From Chlorobiota bacterium (GTDB lineage: Bacteria > Bacteroidota > Ignavibacteria > OLB7): DNA of 64,000 nucleotides. A model generated the notes under the pieces. That model did not search any database, was not told where the DNA came from, and saw nothing but the letters and a program-made list of their open reading frames with translations. How positions within the stretch are numbered: the stretch's first letter is position 1; each line of letters starts with the position of its first letter. The stretch spans positions 1-64,000 of the forward strand of contig JAEUSP010000085.1 of assembly GCA_016788565.1 (NCBI GenBank), given 5' to 3'. Positions 41,018-49,149 of the stretch are shown in pieces. Position numbers and translations under genes: made by a program.

Positions 41018-41554
41018 TTATTGATTATGCGGGCATTTTCCCGGCTCGGGACATTCGGCAAATACTTGGAAGGAGTGATCCACAACTTTCAGCCCGGCCA
41101 TATCGGCAACTTGCTTGCGGATGCTCAGAAGCTGCGGGTTCACAAATTCCGAGATATGCCCGCATTTCACACAGATCAAGTGGTCGTGGTGCGGCTCATC
41201 GAATCCAACTTCATAATAGCTTCTGTCGGTCCTGAAATTATGCTTGATAATTATTCCAGCTTTTTCCAGCAATTCCAATGTTGAATAGACGGTTGCGCGG
41301 CTGATGCGAATTTTACTCATCACCATATTTGCGTACAACTCATCGGCATTAAAATGCCCGTGGCCAACGCGGTTCAGCACCATCTCCAACACCTTGAACC
41401 GCTCGTCGGTTGAGCGGTAATGCTCCTGGGTCAGAAATTTGGTGAACGTTGCAATGGCCTGCTGCTTTTGCTCGTTGGAAAGTATGCGATCTTCTTCGTG
41501 CAATTCTTTCGATTGCACGGCTTCGGGAACGGTTGGTTGTTTTGTTTTCGGCAT
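41018..41554 (-). CDS. Fur family metalloregulator
   Basis: 178 residues. An N-terminal winged-helix region (STDERFKVLEMVL, RISRATVYSTLELLEKAGII) is followed by the metal-binding dimer domain with DEPHHDHLICVKCGHISEF and a C-terminal CPEPGKCPH. The two CxxC-like pairs suggest a structural zinc site, and the histidines a regulatory site. The start at 41554 is preceded by a GAGAG/GGAGAAG region and follows ccmF by four bases. It is the penultimate gene of the ccm operon. Fur, Zur or PerR specificity cannot be fixed. Confidence 0.9.
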   Translation of the reverse strand: MPKTKQPTVPEAVQSKELHEEDRILSNEQKQQAIATFTKFLTQEHYRSTDERFKVLEMVLNRVGHGHFNADELYANMVMSKIRISRATVYSTLELLEKAGIIIKHNFRTDRSYYEVGFDEPHHDHLICVKCGHISEFVNPQLLSIRKQVADMAGLKVVDHSFQVFAECPEPGKCPHNQ

Positions 41555-41558
41555 CTCT

Positions 41559-43982
41559 CTAAACTTCTCCCGCATTAATTTCTTTCGGACGTGCGTTGCT
41601 TATTTTCTCACCATTGGCAAACTGAGTTTGTGCCTGTTGCAGAGGCGAAGGTGCTGACGGGTTTACCACCCGGAACACATCTTTCCAACGGCGAATGATG
41701 GAGAAGAAAAATCCCCCAACCATGATAATTACCCCGGCCCAAACGAACGAAATAAACGGCTTCACCGAAACATCAACCGTAATGACCCGCTTGGAGGGTG
41801 GTGCTGGATGCGAGGGCGAGCTGAAGACAAAAACAGCCTCGGAGTTTGCCAAATTTTCCCGATCGGCCCGCAGGTCGCCAAAGCCGATGGAAATATCGGT
41901 GGATGGAATTAAAACCGGCAGGTAGCGGCCACCTTCCAAAATGCGCGAAGCTGTCAGGGAGAAGGTGCTATCCTTTGTGGCGACTTCAACAACTGCGGAT
42001 TGCTTCCCATCTTGGGCTGCGTTGGCCATTTCAAATTTCACAAAACGGAGGGTGATGCTGGAATCAAACGGGAGGGGAATTTTATCCCCTTTGTGCATAG
42101 CAACCGTTGGATTTCCGCCATCGTCTTCAATGGCTTTTGGGGAGACGTAAATATCCTTTGTTGGGTAGTACAATATCCCCGGCTCAAGAAATGCCGACTG
42201 CCGTTTGTTAAAATCGCTCCAGAAAATTATTGGTTGGACTTCGTAGCTGCTTCCATCCTTCACCATCTCAATTTTATGGGCAAATTTTTCGCGGTCGGTT
42301 TTATCTAACTCAATCTGCTCCTGCCCCTTGTAGGTCATCTTGTAGCCGAATGCTTCCTTGGTCTCCCCTTGCGGCAAACGGACGTGCTGGGTGACGGAGT
42401 AGCGTGCGGTGAAGACAATGCCAAGCATCATCAATGCAACGCCAGCGTGAGAAACATACGCGCCAACAAAGCTCTTATTTCCGCGAAGGATTTTCCAACC
42501 CATTTCAAGGTTGATGGTTAAGGCCAGCACCGCCCCAAAACCAAGCGCGATGTAGATAGGGTCGTGGATTCCCAGCAGTATCAGCCCGAGAGTTCCAACG
42601 GCGGCAATAATTGTTGATAATGATAACGCTTTTATGAACGATTCTTTGGAGGTATTCTTCCATTTCAGCCCCATGGTGAGAGCGTTCAAAAACACGATGA
42701 TAAAGCCGAACGGAAGCATCAGCATATTAAAGTCGCCGGTTTCGAACGGCTTTTTTGCCAAGCCGAAAATCGGGCGAATAATGGGCCAGCTTGTTCCGAT
42801 TAAGGTGACGATGGAGCACCCCACCAACACCGCCGAACCCAACGCCAAACCGTTCTCGCGCGACATCAATTTCATTTCGCCAGCGATGTTCGTTAGCTGT
42901 CGCCAGCGGATTGCCAGGGCAACAACACCAATCCCAAGAAACAGGAAAATAATTCCCAGCAAAACTGCATACACGAACATCCCAGGCGCGACGAAACTGT
43001 GGACTGAGGTATCGCCAAGAACACCGGAGCGGGTAAGAAAAGTTGAGTAAAGAATCAGAGCATAAGCAAAAATTGCCAACACAAAATTGGTGCGAACAAG
43101 CCCACCCGCCATTGGAAGCCCATTCGGGCCATTCATGGTTCCGGTTCGTTTTTGCACCAGCATGGTGTGGACCAACGCCACGCACACCAACCACGGAATT
43201 AGCGATGAATTTTCCACCGGATCCCACGCCCAGAAACCTCCCCAGCCAAGCGTCTCGTAGGCCCACCAGCCGCCAAGCATAATTCCAAAACCGAGCACCA
43301 TGGAGGCGAACAACGTCCAGGGGAGCGAGACGGTAATCCAGCGTTGAAAATCCTTGCGGAACAGCCCAGCAATGGCAAACACAAACGGGACGGACATTGC
43401 CGCAAACCCCATGAAAAGAATTGGTGGATGAATGGTGATCCACAAATTTTCCAACTGTGGGTTCATTCCTTTTCCGGTTGGGGGGATATAGCCAGCGGGG
43501 ACTTCGCCAGGGAAGGATGCTTGCAGCGTTTCGAAGGGGGATTGCACCACCAGAATCATCAACAAACAGACCAACACCAGCGTGTAGATGGTCATCACTG
43601 GGGCTTCGTAGTTCACCCGCTGGGCGTATCCCATCACAAACACCGCAACGATGCAGGTCAGCAAGGTCCACAGCATGAAGCTCCCCTCCTGCCCTGCATA
43701 AAAGGAGGCCATCAGCAGCGGGCGGGAAAGGAAGCTGGAGGAATGCTGCCAGACGTAGGTGTATTGGAACTGGTGGGTAAAAATCAGGAACATCAGCGTG
43801 GCCGATGCAAACATGAAGCCGAGCACCGAAGCATGGAAGCCAACGCGGCCAATCTTCCCAAAACGCTCCTCTCCATTTTTCCACATCAGGCCATACGCAA
43901 CCATGGAGATTGCGGCGGTGGCAAGCGCAAAGCAAATGGCAATCGTGCCAAGTGTTCCGTTAAAAACTGCTGTATCGTTCAT
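41559..43982 (-). CDS. ccmF: Cytochrome c heme lyase subunit CcmF
   Basis: 807 residues, about 14-15 membrane helices. The tryptophan-rich heme-handling WWD motif is clear (WGGFWAWDPVENSSLIPW) and conserved histidines occur in TIHPPILFMGFA and elsewhere. CcmF transfers heme from CcmE to apocytochrome c at the outer face of the membrane. The C-terminal periplasmic domain (about 560-760) is normal. It ends four bases before fur. Confidence 0.95.
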   Translation of the reverse strand: MNDTAVFNGTLGTIAICFALATAAISMVAYGLMWKNGEERFGKIGRVGFHASVLGFMFASATLMFLIFTHQFQYTYVWQHSSSFLSRPLLMASFYAGQEGSFMLWTLLTCIVAVFVMGYAQRVNYEAPVMTIYTLVLVCLLMILVVQSPFETLQASFPGEVPAGYIPPTGKGMNPQLENLWITIHPPILFMGFAAMSVPFVFAIAGLFRKDFQRWITVSLPWTLFASMVLGFGIMLGGWWAYETLGWGGFWAWDPVENSSLIPWLVCVALVHTMLVQKRTGTMNGPNGLPMAGGLVRTNFVLAIFAYALILYSTFLTRSGVLGDTSVHSFVAPGMFVYAVLLGIIFLFLGIGVVALAIRWRQLTNIAGEMKLMSRENGLALGSAVLVGCSIVTLIGTSWPIIRPIFGLAKKPFETGDFNMLMLPFGFIIVFLNALTMGLKWKNTSKESFIKALSLSTIIAAVGTLGLILLGIHDPIYIALGFGAVLALTINLEMGWKILRGNKSFVGAYVSHAGVALMMLGIVFTARYSVTQHVRLPQGETKEAFGYKMTYKGQEQIELDKTDREKFAHKIEMVKDGSSYEVQPIIFWSDFNKRQSAFLEPGILYYPTKDIYVSPKAIEDDGGNPTVAMHKGDKIPLPFDSSITLRFVKFEMANAAQDGKQSAVVEVATKDSTFSLTASRILEGGRYLPVLIPSTDISIGFGDLRADRENLANSEAVFVFSSPSHPAPPSKRVITVDVSVKPFISFVWAGVIIMVGGFFFSIIRRWKDVFRVVNPSAPSPLQQAQTQFANGEKISNARPKEINAGEV

Positions 43983-44006: not shown

Positions 44007-44363
44007 TCACTTAAAGAAGAGTTCTTTGCCGTGGAAATGATCCGAGTGGGCGTGGCCGGCAATGTGCAGGACTTCCTTTTTCTGCAGAGCTTGGTTCAGC
44101 CGTTCGTGGTCGAATGCCTCGCCATCGTAGCTGACTTTCACCTGGGTCCCGTCCATATCGGTCACGTAGAACACCACTGCGCCATCCTCGGTAGCGGGGC
44201 GGTCAATCCCCTTCCCCACCAGAATCACTTTTTTGGATTCATCATTGATCTTCACCGCTTCGGCAAAGGTCATTTGCGGCACACCGACGTTCATCACCCC
44301 GTAGATCACTACACCGGCCGAGAGCAACAGGAAGAAGGAGATGAAAAGGATTCTGCGTTGCAT
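44007..44363 (-). CDS. CcmE-like OB-fold protein, second copy
   Basis: 118 residues: one membrane anchor (about 5-24) then an OB-fold region (KKVILVGKGIDR, VVFYVTDMDGTQVKVSY, VLHIAGHAHSDHFHGKELFF). It resembles CcmE but has neither the HxxxY nor the CxxxY heme-attachment motif; a cluster of histidines occurs instead near the end. It lies between ccmE and ccmF. A helper in heme transfer is plausible but unproven. Confidence 0.7.
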   Translation of the reverse strand: MQRRILFISFFLLLSAGVVIYGVMNVGVPQMTFAEAVKINDESKKVILVGKGIDRPATEDGAVVFYVTDMDGTQVKVSYDGEAFDHERLNQALQKKEVLHIAGHAHSDHFHGKELFFK

Positions 44364-44418: not shown

Positions 44419-44802
44419 CTACAACTGTAAGTCTTTGGAGGTTGCTTCGTACTTGCTGGGGCATTTGGTTAGGATGTTCGTTGCCACGAACTCCCCGTTC
44501 TCCACCCTACCGGTACAGACCACCTCGGTAGCGATTTCAAAGTTATTCGGCTTGGCACCTTCAAACTTCACCGGCATGGTGTTGCCGTCGCGATCCTGCA
44601 TGGTGAAGGTGAACAGATTGCTGGCAGCGTTGTATTCCTGCCCTTTTTCTTTCACCCAAACGCCGGCCACCTGCACTTTGCTTCCCGATTCGGAGGCGCG
44701 TGGGAAGTTCATATACTCCACGCCACGGCTTTCAACAACGATAAACGCCGTGACCAGCACAGCAAAGGCGATAACGGCCCCGATGATATACTTTGGTTTC
44801 AT
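44419..44802 (-). CDS. ccmE: Cytochrome c maturation protein CcmE, cysteine variant
   Basis: 127 residues: a membrane anchor (about 5-24) and the periplasmic OB fold. The heme-attachment motif is NILTKCPSKYE, giving Cys114 and Tyr118 (CxxxY) instead of the usual HxxxY. Variant System I pathways in archaea and some bacteria use such a cysteine CcmE and lack CcmH. Its start overlaps the ccmD stop by four bases. Confidence 0.9.
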   Translation of the reverse strand: MKPKYIIGAVIAFAVLVTAFIVVESRGVEYMNFPRASESGSKVQVAGVWVKEKGQEYNAASNLFTFTMQDRDGNTMPVKFEGAKPNNFEIATEVVCTGRVENGEFVATNILTKCPSKYEATSKDLQL

Positions 44803-44990: not shown

Positions 44991-46091
44991 TTACAGACGA
45001 ACCACCGTCGGCCCCATTGCCGATGATGGTTGTTTCTCTCGGTTATCCATCCCCGCTGCGCGGCGTTCCCGGCGCATCCCCAGCAGCCGCGTGCGGACAG
45101 CAACGTTCAGCATCCAGAAGTAGAGGACAATAAACGCAAAGATTGCCAGGCCGTAGATGACCTGCATCACAATGTTCATCGAATCGGCTTGACCCGATAG
45201 CACTGGGCCGGAGTTCACATCCCCTTTCGAGCCGGGGTGCAGCCCGCCGGCAATGCGTGGATAGACGAACATGAAGAAGGTGACCGGCAGCACCAGAATC
45301 ACCATATAGACTGCGGAAATTCTTCCCCGCTGGTCCTGGTTCTCGATGGCAGAACGGAGCGCGAAGTAGGCCCCGAAGACAATCAGCACAATGGTGATAG
45401 AGATCAGCCGGGGATCGTCCCAGGTCCAGAATGTTCCCCAATTAAAGCGCGCCCACACCGAACCGGTGATGGTTGCTAACAGGCAGAAAATCCCCCCCAA
45501 CGCGGCAGCCGAGCTTGCGATGATGTCGTGTTCGATCTTCCGTTTGCGCAAGTAGGCAATCGCAAAGCCGAACGCCACAAACCAAGCGATTTGCGCCACC
45601 CATGCCGAAGGGACATGGAAATAGAGATTGCGGGCGCGTTCTTCCAGCCCGGGGATCAGCGGCGCGGTGACAATGGGGTTCACCGAAGCAACCCGTTCGG
45701 CCTCGAACAATTTTTCCGCACGGACGAAGCGGGCATCAAGGATCACCTGGTCGCCAGGTTGAATATCGGAAGGGTTGATCCCCGCGCCGGCTAACCGGAA
45801 CGTATCCAAATCACCATCGGAATCTTGCAGCACCGCAAGGCCGTTGGTTGGGGCTTGTATCACCTTCCCCATCACCGGAAGCAGTGGCGGAGTGTCCTTG
45901 GTCATGCTGATCATTTTTGCCGAGCCGAAGGTCCCCCCGGTTGGCACGCCGAACCCAACAATCACCAACACCACAAGGGCCACCATTGCAACGGCGCGCC
46001 ACCAAAACGGGCGCGGCTTGGTAATGCCACCGGGATAGAAGCCGAGGAACATCCCCAGGGCAAACCCGCCGAAGATGAGAAGTGCTTTCAT
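44991..46091 (-). CDS. ccmC: Heme transporter CcmC with an extra N-terminal domain
   Basis: 366 residues. The C-terminal part (about 140-366) is the standard six-helix CcmC/CcsA-type core, with FHVPSAWVAQIAW and the WWD-type motif WGTFWTWDDPRLIS, which loads heme on CcmE. Before it lie one or two helices and a soluble beta-rich segment (about 52-130; VMGKVIQAPTNGLAVLQD, GDQVILDARFVRAEKL) that may be a small OB fold. The extension is not part of normal CcmC. It begins 14 bases after ccmB. Confidence 0.9.
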   Translation of the reverse strand: MKALLIFGGFALGMFLGFYPGGITKPRPFWWRAVAMVALVVLVIVGFGVPTGGTFGSAKMISMTKDTPPLLPVMGKVIQAPTNGLAVLQDSDGDLDTFRLAGAGINPSDIQPGDQVILDARFVRAEKLFEAERVASVNPIVTAPLIPGLEERARNLYFHVPSAWVAQIAWFVAFGFAIAYLRKRKIEHDIIASSAAALGGIFCLLATITGSVWARFNWGTFWTWDDPRLISITIVLIVFGAYFALRSAIENQDQRGRISAVYMVILVLPVTFFMFVYPRIAGGLHPGSKGDVNSGPVLSGQADSMNIVMQVIYGLAIFAFIVLYFWMLNVAVRTRLLGMRRERRAAGMDNREKQPSSAMGPTVVRL

Positions 46092-46105: not shown

Positions 46106-46762
46106 TTATTCCTTCCAGAGAGAATCGAAGAGGATGTAGCTGACGACAATCACCAGCACTGAATAGAGGAGCAACAGCAGCAACGGTTCGGCCATCACCC
46201 CCAACGCTGCACCGGCAAACGCACGCCCAAGAAGGTCAATTCCCAACACCATCAGCGGCAGCAGAATTGGGAAACAGAGCACCGGAAACAGCGCGCTTTT
46301 GGAGGAAGACCGGGCAATAATCGCCGAAGCAATTGTGAGCGACGCGGCAAACCCGAAACTGCACAGAAGCAACACGATCACCAGAGCAAACGGCGAACCC
46401 AACTGCACGTTGGTGGAGAAAAACAGGTAGAGCATCCCCACCACTGCATTGACCCCAACAGCAAACAGCAAGTTCACCAGCAGCTTCCCGAAATAGACTG
46501 GGATTGCCGAGGTTGTTAGCCGCAGCAGCAGCACCGTGCCACGCTCTTCCTCGCTTACGAACGTGCGGCCAAGCCCGGTCACCGCAGTGAAAAACATGCT
46601 AACCCACAACATCCCCGAAGCAATCCCGACGGGAACTTTCACTTCCTCGCGAGCGGCATACACCAGCACCACCACCGTCACCACGGCCACCATCGCAAGT
46701 GAGTTCAGCGCGAATCGGGTGCGAAGCTCACTTCGGATATCTTTTGCCGCAACAGCAGCCAT
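46106..46762 (-). CDS. ccmB: Heme exporter subunit CcmB
   Basis: 218 residues, six helices, with the CcmB pattern KDIRSELRTRFALNS, EEERGTVLLLRLTT and FGFAASLTIASAI. CcmB is the membrane partner of the CcmA ATPase and helps release holo-CcmE. I choose the ATG at 46762, because a longer frame runs into a MITE-like repeat. The partner ccmA is not adjacent and was not found in the window. Confidence 0.88.
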   Translation of the reverse strand: MAAVAAKDIRSELRTRFALNSLAMVAVVTVVVLVYAAREEVKVPVGIASGMLWVSMFFTAVTGLGRTFVSEEERGTVLLLRLTTSAIPVYFGKLLVNLLFAVGVNAVVGMLYLFFSTNVQLGSPFALVIVLLLCSFGFAASLTIASAIIARSSSKSALFPVLCFPILLPLMVLGIDLLGRAFAGAALGVMAEPLLLLLLYSVLVIVVSYILFDSLWKE

Positions 46763-47154
46763 TTGTTGGAATGCTTTGGCAAGCGTGGAAGGCACAGCGT
46801 TGATTCCGCAGTAATGGTTATACTCCAAACAGAATGGTTTGCGAAAAACCTAGTCGTTGTCATTCCCGCGAAAGCGGGAATCCATAGCGAACCTAGCTGA
46901 GTAGAGTTTCGCAAACCAATTTGCGCCGAGTATAGCCCCAGTTGAAGTTTTCTACCGAAGCAAGCTACGGAATTCACGATAGGGATTGCTGTCGCAGCGT
47001 TTTTCAAACTGTGGGAACGACCTCACCCCTGTTCAAGCAGCTCCGATACAGTGAAGGCACGAAATCTCGAGGATTGCTCCCCAGAATCCATGCCTCCATC
47101 ACTGCCATGTGTTACTCTATTCGATTGCGTCTGTACGATTGGGGTTGCCGTGCG
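46763..47154. other. Intergenic region containing a MITE-like element
   Basis: 392 bases upstream of ccmB and downstream of the multiheme cytochrome. A MITE-like element is at 46818-46934. Nothing else was recognised. Confidence 0.6.
46818..46934. mobile_element. MITE-like palindromic element, copy B
   Basis: About 117 bases bounded by tatactcc and cgagtata ends, with inner arms tggtttgcgaaa / tttcgcaaacca and a central cattcccgcgaaagcgggaa hairpin. It is the reverse orientation of copy A and shares almost its whole length. Confidence 0.8.
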
Positions 47155-49149
47155 CTACGGCAGCACAATCACTTTTTCGCTGGTGGTTCCAGCCGGCGTT
47201 GTGATGCGAACCATGTAGGCCCCGCTTGCCACCCGCTTGCCGAAGTTATCGTTGGCATCCCACACCACTGAGTAGTTCCCTGGCTCGGTCATCCCGCTGG
47301 AAACGTAGCGGACGTTTCGACCAAGCATATCCACAATCTGCACCCTCACGCTCGCGCGGGACTTCACGTTGTACTGGATGTTCAGCGTGTTGCCGGATAC
47401 CATTGGGTTTGGAGCCATGCCGGTGACGGCAATGTCCGAGGCTTCGACTCCAGATTGATTATGCCGTGTTGACCATCCCCATTGCTTCCAACGCTTGAAC
47501 AGGGTATCGGCCAACAGGCTATCCGATTTCTCCTTGTAGAAGACTGGATTCAGATCAACGAGTCCAAAATCTGGTGCCAGTGGGTCGCCCGGTTTGCGGT
47601 TTCGTTCGCCGCGCCCGTTGCGGTGGCAACCTGCGGCGCAGGTGTTAATCGTGCCGAGTGTTGCGCCACGGCGGTAGTACCAGATCGTCTCTTCTGGAGA
47701 AATCACCTTAAAGCTGTGATCGGTGAAGTTAAACTTGCCGTCGAAGGAGATGGTTGCGGTTGCCGTAAAGTGGCAATTCACACACTGGCTTACCCCTTGC
47801 GAGTGGAACGTGTGTGCGTTCACAGTTTTCCCATCCAAGATGGTATCACGCCCCAGATTATCGGCGGGGAACTCACTCTTTCCTCCCTGCGCTTTTGGAA
47901 TACCGTGGCAGCTCATGCAGCCAACACCATCCTCCAAGGAGTAGTAATCATCTTTCAACTGGAACGGTAGTCCTGGCTTGTTGTAGTGAGACAAGTGGCA
48001 ATCGGAGCAGCCATCAACGAATAGATGAGACTTGTACTGAGACGAACGTGAGTAATCATCGCCATGCTGGTGGTGGGCGTAGGAAGTTTTTCCATCGTCC
48101 CACACTGTTGGGCGTGCAAAAAGGAAGTCGCTCAACGGACGATCGCCACCGGGGATGAACGGCTCGTTATTAGTTTCATCAAATGGGTAGCGGTGGATAC
48201 GGCCTGGCTTGCTGGGGCCACGAGTGTGGCAGTAGTTGCAAAGGTCCAATTTTCGGTCGGTTCCTTCCTTGGTTTTTGGCAGCACCGAGTATGCAAAGAT
48301 GTTATCCTTCCGTGGGCTTGCAACGTGCTCCGAGCCTGGGCCGTGGCAGCTTTCGCAGCCGACTTTAACGTTCTGATCGGTCAAGGCAGAATCACCTTCG
48401 GCCACACCAACCCAAGTTGCATAGTTTGCGGTGTCGGTTGTGCCCGGTTTGGGATCCACAACCAAGCCGAACCCGTTTACGTGGCAAGCCGCACATTCGT
48501 GATCCCACGACAGCTTCAGGAATTCATTCTTTTCCCAGCGGAGGAACCGTGCACCACCAGTGCTTGGGTCGTTTGCTTGGTACCATTTCTGCATATCCAA
48601 CCCAACCCAATAACCAGTATCGGATTGGTTACGATACTCGGGAAGCACGTACTGGAACGGGGGAACGTAGTAGGCTCCGTTGACCTCCACTAAGAATCGT
48701 TGCAGCCACCCTTCGCCGCCGTAGGTGTAGGCCACTTTCATTTTTGGCAGGGAGTCACCACCGCCCGAAAAGCGGAGTTGGATGTAGTATTCATCCTCAC
48801 GCTCCCCCTTGCTTAGCTCAATCAGCAACGTATCCTGCCCTGGCGTTGGAATGCCTTGGTCATAAATTTTCAACACACGTTTTTCGCGGAACCAGCGGTC
48901 AATAATCACCGTCTCTGGATTTGGCCGCAGGTGAATCTTGGTGTGCATCGTTTCCATGAACGCTGCCGCACCTTTGTAGCTTTCTCCGTTTCCATACTGC
49001 CCCGCATGGCAGTTTGCCGTCAGGCACGATTGCACACCGGTGTACGTACGCGCCGCAGGCTTCGGAGAGGATTTGGTGTTGATGGCCACCAGCACGCCAG
49101 CAGCAACAAGCAAGGCTGCTGCAAGGTAGTAACGTAGGGCTTTGGTCAT
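47155..49149 (-). CDS. Multiheme cytochrome c with T9SS sorting domain
   Basis: 664 residues. N-terminal export segment (about 5-24). Six classical CxxCH motifs: CAACH 219, CESCH 265, CNYCH 304, CSDCH 381, CMSCH 411 and CVNCH 456. Two unusual ones: CLTANCH at 42 (CX4CH) and CAAGCH at 504 (CX3CH), so up to eight hemes. From about residue 573, a NPMVSGNTLNIQY... sequence ending SEKVIVLP resembles the T9SS type A sorting domain. A surface electron-transfer role is inferred. It lies upstream of the ccm operon on the same strand. Confidence 0.85.
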   Translation of the reverse strand: MTKALRYYLAAALLVAAGVLVAINTKSSPKPAARTYTGVQSCLTANCHAGQYGNGESYKGAAAFMETMHTKIHLRPNPETVIIDRWFREKRVLKIYDQGIPTPGQDTLLIELSKGEREDEYYIQLRFSGGGDSLPKMKVAYTYGGEGWLQRFLVEVNGAYYVPPFQYVLPEYRNQSDTGYWVGLDMQKWYQANDPSTGGARFLRWEKNEFLKLSWDHECAACHVNGFGLVVDPKPGTTDTANYATWVGVAEGDSALTDQNVKVGCESCHGPGSEHVASPRKDNIFAYSVLPKTKEGTDRKLDLCNYCHTRGPSKPGRIHRYPFDETNNEPFIPGGDRPLSDFLFARPTVWDDGKTSYAHHQHGDDYSRSSQYKSHLFVDGCSDCHLSHYNKPGLPFQLKDDYYSLEDGVGCMSCHGIPKAQGGKSEFPADNLGRDTILDGKTVNAHTFHSQGVSQCVNCHFTATATISFDGKFNFTDHSFKVISPEETIWYYRRGATLGTINTCAAGCHRNGRGERNRKPGDPLAPDFGLVDLNPVFYKEKSDSLLADTLFKRWKQWGWSTRHNQSGVEASDIAVTGMAPNPMVSGNTLNIQYNVKSRASVRVQIVDMLGRNVRYVSSGMTEPGNYSVVWDANDNFGKRVASGAYMVRITTPAGTTSEKVIVLP

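Follow-up and report, generated by a model that had tools for sequence, protein, structure and literature searches.

A probable T9SS-delivered, OcwA-type octaheme surface cytochrome with unconventional heme motifs in a bacterium of the class Ignavibacteria

How might a Gram-negative bacterium bring a heme-rich protein to the outside of its cell, and what could such a protein do there? The question is raised by a gene within the window, a stretch of 64,000 nucleotides from contig JAEUSP010000085.1 of a Chlorobiota bacterium (class Ignavibacteria). The gene occupies 47155..49149 on the minus strand, starts with ATG and encodes an octaheme c-type cytochrome of 664 aa that carries a C-terminal sorting domain of the type IX secretion system (T9SS). 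The plus-strand frame of 47155-49149 is interrupted by stops. A first-pass annotation, made from the letters of the DNA, had described six CXXCH motifs, one CX4CH and one CX3CH, and this count is exact: there are precisely eight C-Xn-CH motifs, and they take up all of the protein's cysteines (16/16). Composition-preserving shuffles of the protein (20,000) gave a chance expectation of 0.035 motifs per protein and a maximum of 2, and none of the other open reading frames of at least 100 aa in the 64-kb window holds more than one heme motif. Our main reading, to which we assign a probability of roughly 0.62, is that the cytochrome is a T9SS-delivered, OcwA-type octaheme surface oxidoreductase belonging to the OcwA/NrfA superfamily.

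The eight sites are distributed over most of the protein, all on the minus strand. Site 1 is the CX4CH motif C42LTANCH (49006..49026), followed by site 2, C219AACH (48481..48495). Sites 3 to 7 are C265ESCH(GPGSEH) at 48343..48357, C304NYCH at 48226..48240, C381SDCH(LSH) at 47995..48009, C411MSCH at 47905..47919 and C456VNCH at 47770..47784. Site 8 is the CX3CH motif C504AAGCH (47623..47640). Every cysteine and histidine of these eight sites is present in 27/27 aligned members of the family, in line with the up to eight hemes proposed at first.

The two unconventional motifs differ in how widely they are shared. Site 8 has the same CX3CH spacing in 27/27 aligned members and is CXXCH in the proteobacterial and acidobacterial homologs. 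The CX4CH spacing of site 1 is restricted to the cytochrome's own family (f1), a well-supported group of four in the tree; the remaining members of the class, as well as all aligned homologs outside f1, have CXXCH at this place. Other sites vary too, with CX4CH at site 6 in G002 and G003 and CX3CH at site 5 in G162 and G200. In the Rhizobium, Roseibium and Pseudoalteromonas homologs, 8/8 sites are plain CXXCH, and in a Granulicella homolog seven sites are present, all of them CXXCH. Because canonical CXXCH motifs of homologs in other phyla fall in the alignment columns of the odd sites, we read the unusual spacings as small insertions at genuine heme sites. By conservation, the CX4CH and CX3CH motifs are true heme sites, at which heme would be attached. 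The opposing idea, that they bind no heme and the product is a six-heme protein, can draw on their non-canonical form and on the AF2 model of the whole cytochrome (pLDDT 30, two-sequence input), which gives them no structural support. It is extremely improbable, however, given that both sites keep their C, C and H throughout, that no cysteine falls outside the eight motifs and that sites 5 and 6 toggle between spacings in the same manner.

Relatives of the heme domain were found by profile search in 33/391 genomes of the same class, the other matches involving the tail only, and in a phylum sample of 396 genomes, strong matches came only from members of this class. A scan of genome contigs returned one relative only, a protein from a MAG that is 94% identical, and no relative of the cytochrome was seen on viral contigs. 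This nearest named relative (L021, JADZEY010000089.1) is labelled Armatimonadetes, a label that looks wrong given the complete T9SS in its genome group. A few members deviate in architecture. One gene (L033, G038:C1:159331-161130) is interrupted in its N-terminal part by one in-frame TAG stop and is either a pseudogene or the product of an assembly error. An ethylbenzene-dehydrogenase-like domain (PF09459) occurs in 1/25 family members, and its likely bearer is L050:599-3481 (961 aa), where it would separate the octaheme part from the T9SS tail. Two more members are long, G312:C77 with 1022 aa, which include an ASH/HYDIN-like Ig domain, and G100:C75 with 1016 aa.

The route to the cell surface is suggested by the C-terminus. 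Residues 579-662 (47164..47415, minus strand) match the T9SS type A sorting domain TIGR04183 with 39.6 bits against a cut-off of 23, so that the sorting domain suspected in the first pass was recovered by a domain search. Modelled alone, the region forms a seven-stranded Ig-like sandwich (pLDDT 78), and the sorting domain of RgpB has a seven-stranded sandwich fold as well (PMC4804311). The combination of multiheme protein and sorting domain is not peculiar to this genome: the tail is present in 25/25 scanned members of the heme-domain family. It is absent from the relatives examined outside the class, several of which are TPR proteins. SprA (907 bits, counted with its in-frame neighbour), PorU (783 bits) and 150 scored sorting-domain matches in the cytochrome's own genome indicate that the organism possesses a T9SS.

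At the other end, a hydrophobic helix at residues 1-23 (49081..49149, minus strand; helix 3-23 in the AF2 model) is presumed to be a Sec signal. The N-terminus has no lipobox and, by eye, no clear signal-peptidase site, and from its sequence the helix could instead be an uncleaved anchor. This feature bears on a different localization, in which the C-terminal domain is a mere Ig-like accessory and the cytochrome stays in the periplasm or is anchored in the inner membrane through its N-terminal helix. Such a reading would fit the profile scores, in which PF13860 (FlgD_ig; 37.3 bits, cut-off 27) exceeds PF18962 (Por_Secre_tail; 26.9 bits, just under the cut-off of 27), and also the Foldseek matches of the sorting-domain model: these are Ig-like folds of a general kind, and the best, which include FlgD and PorZ, do not discriminate. 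We nevertheless regard it as very unlikely. The TIGR04183 score lies well over its cut-off, the domain is shared by all scanned members and sits at the extreme C-terminus, its P580-N-P and G643-x-Y645 positions are invariant, and the genome has both the T9SS components and the many further tails noted above.

The genes next to the cytochrome offer a plausible source of its hemes. Past its stop and on the same minus strand lie ccmB (heme exporter subunit, 46106..46828), ccmC (44991..46091), ccmE (44419..44802), a second, weak CcmE-like protein of 118 aa (44007..44363) and ccmF (heme lyase, 41559..43982), followed by fur (41018-41575). A heme-maturation operon directly downstream had been claimed for this place. 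The ccm genes are indeed the next ones on the same strand, but a gap of about 330 bp separates the cytochrome stop from the first possible ccmB start, and adjacency need not mean co-transcription. A promoter and terminator scan gave a signal no better than shuffles. Within the gap, at 46830-46930 on the minus strand, the sequence GGATTCCCGCTTTCGCGGGAATGAC looks like a dispersed inverted repeat.

In G001, G002 and G003, which represent three genera of the family, the cytochrome and the ccm genes adjoin each other with their order unchanged. The only family member without the cytochrome, G004, is also without a CcmF match, and one missing contig could explain both absences at 95% completeness. 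CcmE itself carries the heme-binding motif CPSKY, of the CXXXY type (PMC9084895). This type of motif, known from archaea and Desulfovibrio desulfuricans (PMC9084895), is conserved across the three genera, and the short CcmE-like protein follows CcmE each time and is thus kept beside it in the family. In the loci annotated from the rest of the class, the octaheme gene has no ccm genes beside it and is often found next to other redox genes. The invariant CX3CH, together with the toggling between CX2, CX3 and CX4 spacings at single sites, amounts to a natural experiment on the motif lengths that the Ccm heme lyase tolerates.

To place the cytochrome among known multiheme proteins, the family profile was compared with solved structures in the PDB. 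The closest is 6i5b (E=2e-31, 112 bits, over profile positions 178-516), followed by 6qvm (E=1e-15) and NrfA (E=1.5e-8). Although 6i5b is listed as an 'uncharacterized protein', we identify it as OcwA, since a constant offset of 29 separates the HH pairs of its chain (252/253 and 351/352) from HH281/282 and HH380/381 of OcwA (PMC6703420). OcwA is a nonaheme terminal reductase from the cell surface of Thermincola potens; two of its hemes, 2 and 5, are five-coordinate, with an HH pair beside each of them (PMC6703420). Site 2 of the cytochrome is the counterpart of the open OcwA heme 2 (PMC6703420), and the H359-H360 pair (48070..48075, minus strand), invariant in 27 homologs, aligns with HH281/282 on the distal side of that heme (PMC6703420). 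In total, H275, H359, H360, H446, H449 and H478 of the cytochrome all align to histidines in OcwA.

One of the OcwA hemes 5-7 has no counterpart in the octaheme family, and which of them counts as lost depends on the alignment. In a MAFFT alternative, sites 5 and 6 of the cytochrome pair with OcwA hemes 5 and 6, leaving OcwA heme 7 unpaired. We favour the loss of heme 5 because of the CHxxH motif (CxxCHxxH then CxxCH), the order of the ligands and the alignment with 6qvm. It is also consistent with the replacement of the second HH pair of OcwA (380/381, at heme 5; chain 351/352) by H-T/S in the octaheme family. Judged from these alignments, the family appears to have lost heme 5, the second open heme of OcwA, so that hemes 1-4 and 6-9 remain.

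The conserved histidines would fit a single open site. Besides those of the heme motifs, histidines 359, 360, 388, 446, 449 and 478 are invariant in the 27 aligned homologs and 69 and 73 nearly so; H275 is shared by OcwA and the closer relatives, without being conserved throughout the 27. It is suggestive that the seven conserved residues 69, 73, 275, 388, 446, 449 and 478 would suffice as distal ligands for the seven hemes other than heme 2. The invariant histidines are, however, numerous enough for a pure surface electron relay as well, with eight six-coordinate hemes, H359 or H360 as an ordinary ligand and no catalytic site. The TPR-tailed homologs keep all hemes without the HH pair, so the pair may reflect a change of ligand. 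Against this stands the conservation of the pair in all 27 homologs and its alignment with the OcwA pair over the open heme (PMC6703420), and we consider a relay devoid of a catalytic site to be quite unlikely.

The main reading, a T9SS-delivered oxidoreductase of the OcwA type, would then work as follows. Judging by its N-terminal helix, the cytochrome would be taken through the inner membrane by Sec, and the adjacent Ccm proteins would attach eight hemes to it in the periplasm, including those at the CX4CH site 1 and the CX3CH site 8. Substrates of the T9SS are folded proteins taken from the periplasm (PMC9251779), which makes heme attachment before export feasible. The Ig-like sorting domain could thus direct the folded holoprotein through SprA and would then be processed by PorU, with the cytochrome left on the surface or released. 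By homology, a chain of hemes, most of them bis-His, would pass electrons on to heme 2, which is predicted to have an open distal side with H359-H360 alongside as in OcwA; an extracellular acceptor would be reached from heme 2 or from other exposed hemes. By analogy with OcwA, a role in extracellular electron transfer is plausible. The idea of a surface electron-transfer system that uses T9SS therefore stands in its routing part, for which the tail, SprA and PorU speak; its electron-transfer part follows from the OcwA homology and is plausible. It would further imply that the T9SS is able to carry heme-loaded multiheme proteins.

It was also suggested at first that T9SS is used instead of a porin-cytochrome complex. 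We do not follow this suggestion: T9SS moves protein rather than electrons, so what it replaces is a secretion step and not a porin-cytochrome conduit. Candidates for such a conduit were sought in the cytochrome's own genome. No MtrB/PioB porin was found there (TIGR03509, E<=1, a search for this type as distinct from OmbB-type porins), and the control genomes likewise gave nothing over the cut-off. Searches with PF13435, PF14522 and PF09699 brought up no large periplasmic or trans-membrane multiheme conduit, and the other multiheme proteins that they returned were the two of NrfHA, the multiheme subunit from an alternative complex III cluster, a c554-like protein with four hemes and a protein with two.

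Homologs elsewhere in the class do have other multiheme genes nearby. At L073:2593-8071, a T9SS octaheme gene lies beside a beta-barrel gene and genes for a 12-heme and a 9-heme protein, candidates for a porin-cytochrome conduit with its surface partner. Genes for 10-heme and 13-heme proteins are found near the octaheme homolog at L065 and L066, and a NapC/NirT-type gene and a 23-heme gene near that at L069. Further T9SS-tailed multiheme proteins adjoin family members at L068:6716-8290, L072:5355-7901, L075:4952-6754 and L076:2905-4830; the one at L072 (848 aa, 9 hemes) combines MtrC-like and NrfA-like matches. Sensor kinase genes adjoin several octaheme homologs.

These surroundings also bear on the substrate. 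A surface reductase exported by T9SS could act on a soluble substrate such as nitrite, hydroxylamine, sulfite or similar, in detoxification or auxiliary respiration, and not in electron transfer to minerals or electrodes. The superfamily includes NrfA, HAO and MccA, the family profile also matches NrfA, OcwA itself has been reported to carry out nitrite- and hydroxylamine-type reactions (PMC6703420), and a lone surface enzyme suits a genome seemingly without a multiheme conduit. We hold this to be unlikely all the same. The genome already has a periplasmic NrfHA, homologs adjoin large multiheme clusters, one of them with a beta-barrel, and an enzyme outside the outer membrane would still need a supply of electrons.

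Ignavibacteria are rich in multiheme cytochromes and possess porin-cytochrome complexes (PMC7399161). For Ignavibacteriaceae, bacteria of the T9SS type that have been found active on electrodes, the mechanism of electron transfer has been stated to be unknown (PMC10874420), and a family of surface cytochromes with an export tag provides a concrete and testable candidate for it. The combination of an OcwA-like octaheme domain, an invariant CX3CH and a T9SS tail can serve as a search handle. A literature search, with most subscription journals outside its coverage, found no paper on T9SS-routed multiheme cytochromes. In a broader and rather doubtful extension, T9SS, and not T2SS or lipoprotein export, would deliver the terminal multiheme reductases of extracellular electron transfer throughout the class, and here, where no porin-cytochrome conduit is recognisable, electrons would need a way across the outer membrane that has not been described. 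In Shewanella, the export role for surface cytochromes belongs to the T2SS.

Comparison with known systems places the cytochrome at varying distances from each. With MtrCAB and other porin-cytochrome complexes it shares a multiheme protein proposed to reside at the cell surface, and the MtrC-like domain PF22113 matches it weakly (27.9 bits, cut-off 30). In contrast to these complexes, however, it has a T9SS tail and no lipobox, and its genome is without an MtrB/PioB match. The octaheme sulfite reductase MccA of Wolinella corresponds to OcwA hemes 1-4 and 6-9 (PMC6703420), the very set that we infer for the cytochrome. In the PDB search, which went up to E=10, the family profile did not match MccA, and the two proteins differ in their motifs. 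MccA carries a CX15CH heme motif, which is absent from the cytochrome, whose last motif is CX3CH.

Sequence similarity is greater for the 'Multiheme cytochrome cf' 6qvm, which matches hemes 2-7 of the cytochrome at the E-value given above but has no T9SS tail and does not retain the HH pair in the alignment. The TPR-tailed octahemes, annotated as 'tetratricopeptide repeat protein' or 'multiheme c-type cytochrome' and found on plasmids of Rhizobium, Roseibium and Pseudoalteromonas, align one to one at all eight sites and retain histidines 69, 275, 388, 446, 449 and 478. They differ in that all their motifs are CXXCH, HH359/360 is missing and a TPR or other C-terminus stands in place of the T9SS tail; identity is about 25%. 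Arylsulfatase genes adjoin or lie near the TPR-type genes in 3/3 cases (L100, L101, L103).

OcwA, a metal-reducing enzyme on the surface of a Gram-positive bacterium, remains the closest relative of known structure. Several features set the cytochrome apart from it: eight hemes instead of nine, with an apparent loss of heme 5 together with its HH pair, CX4CH at the first heme site and CX3CH at the last, a T9SS tail, a Gram-negative host, and a stretch of only about 70 residues in place of the C-terminal three-helix bundle of OcwA. Measured against an OcwA subfamily defined by nine hemes and two open hemes flanked by HH pairs, it falls outside, having eight hemes and the heme-2 pair only; defined by homology (E=2e-31) and a shared heme order in the alignment, the subfamily includes it. 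The likeness extends from the order of the heme sites to the CHGPGxxH and CHxRG motifs, the HH pair at heme 2, the HxxH between hemes 7 and 8 and the histidine ahead of the last heme.
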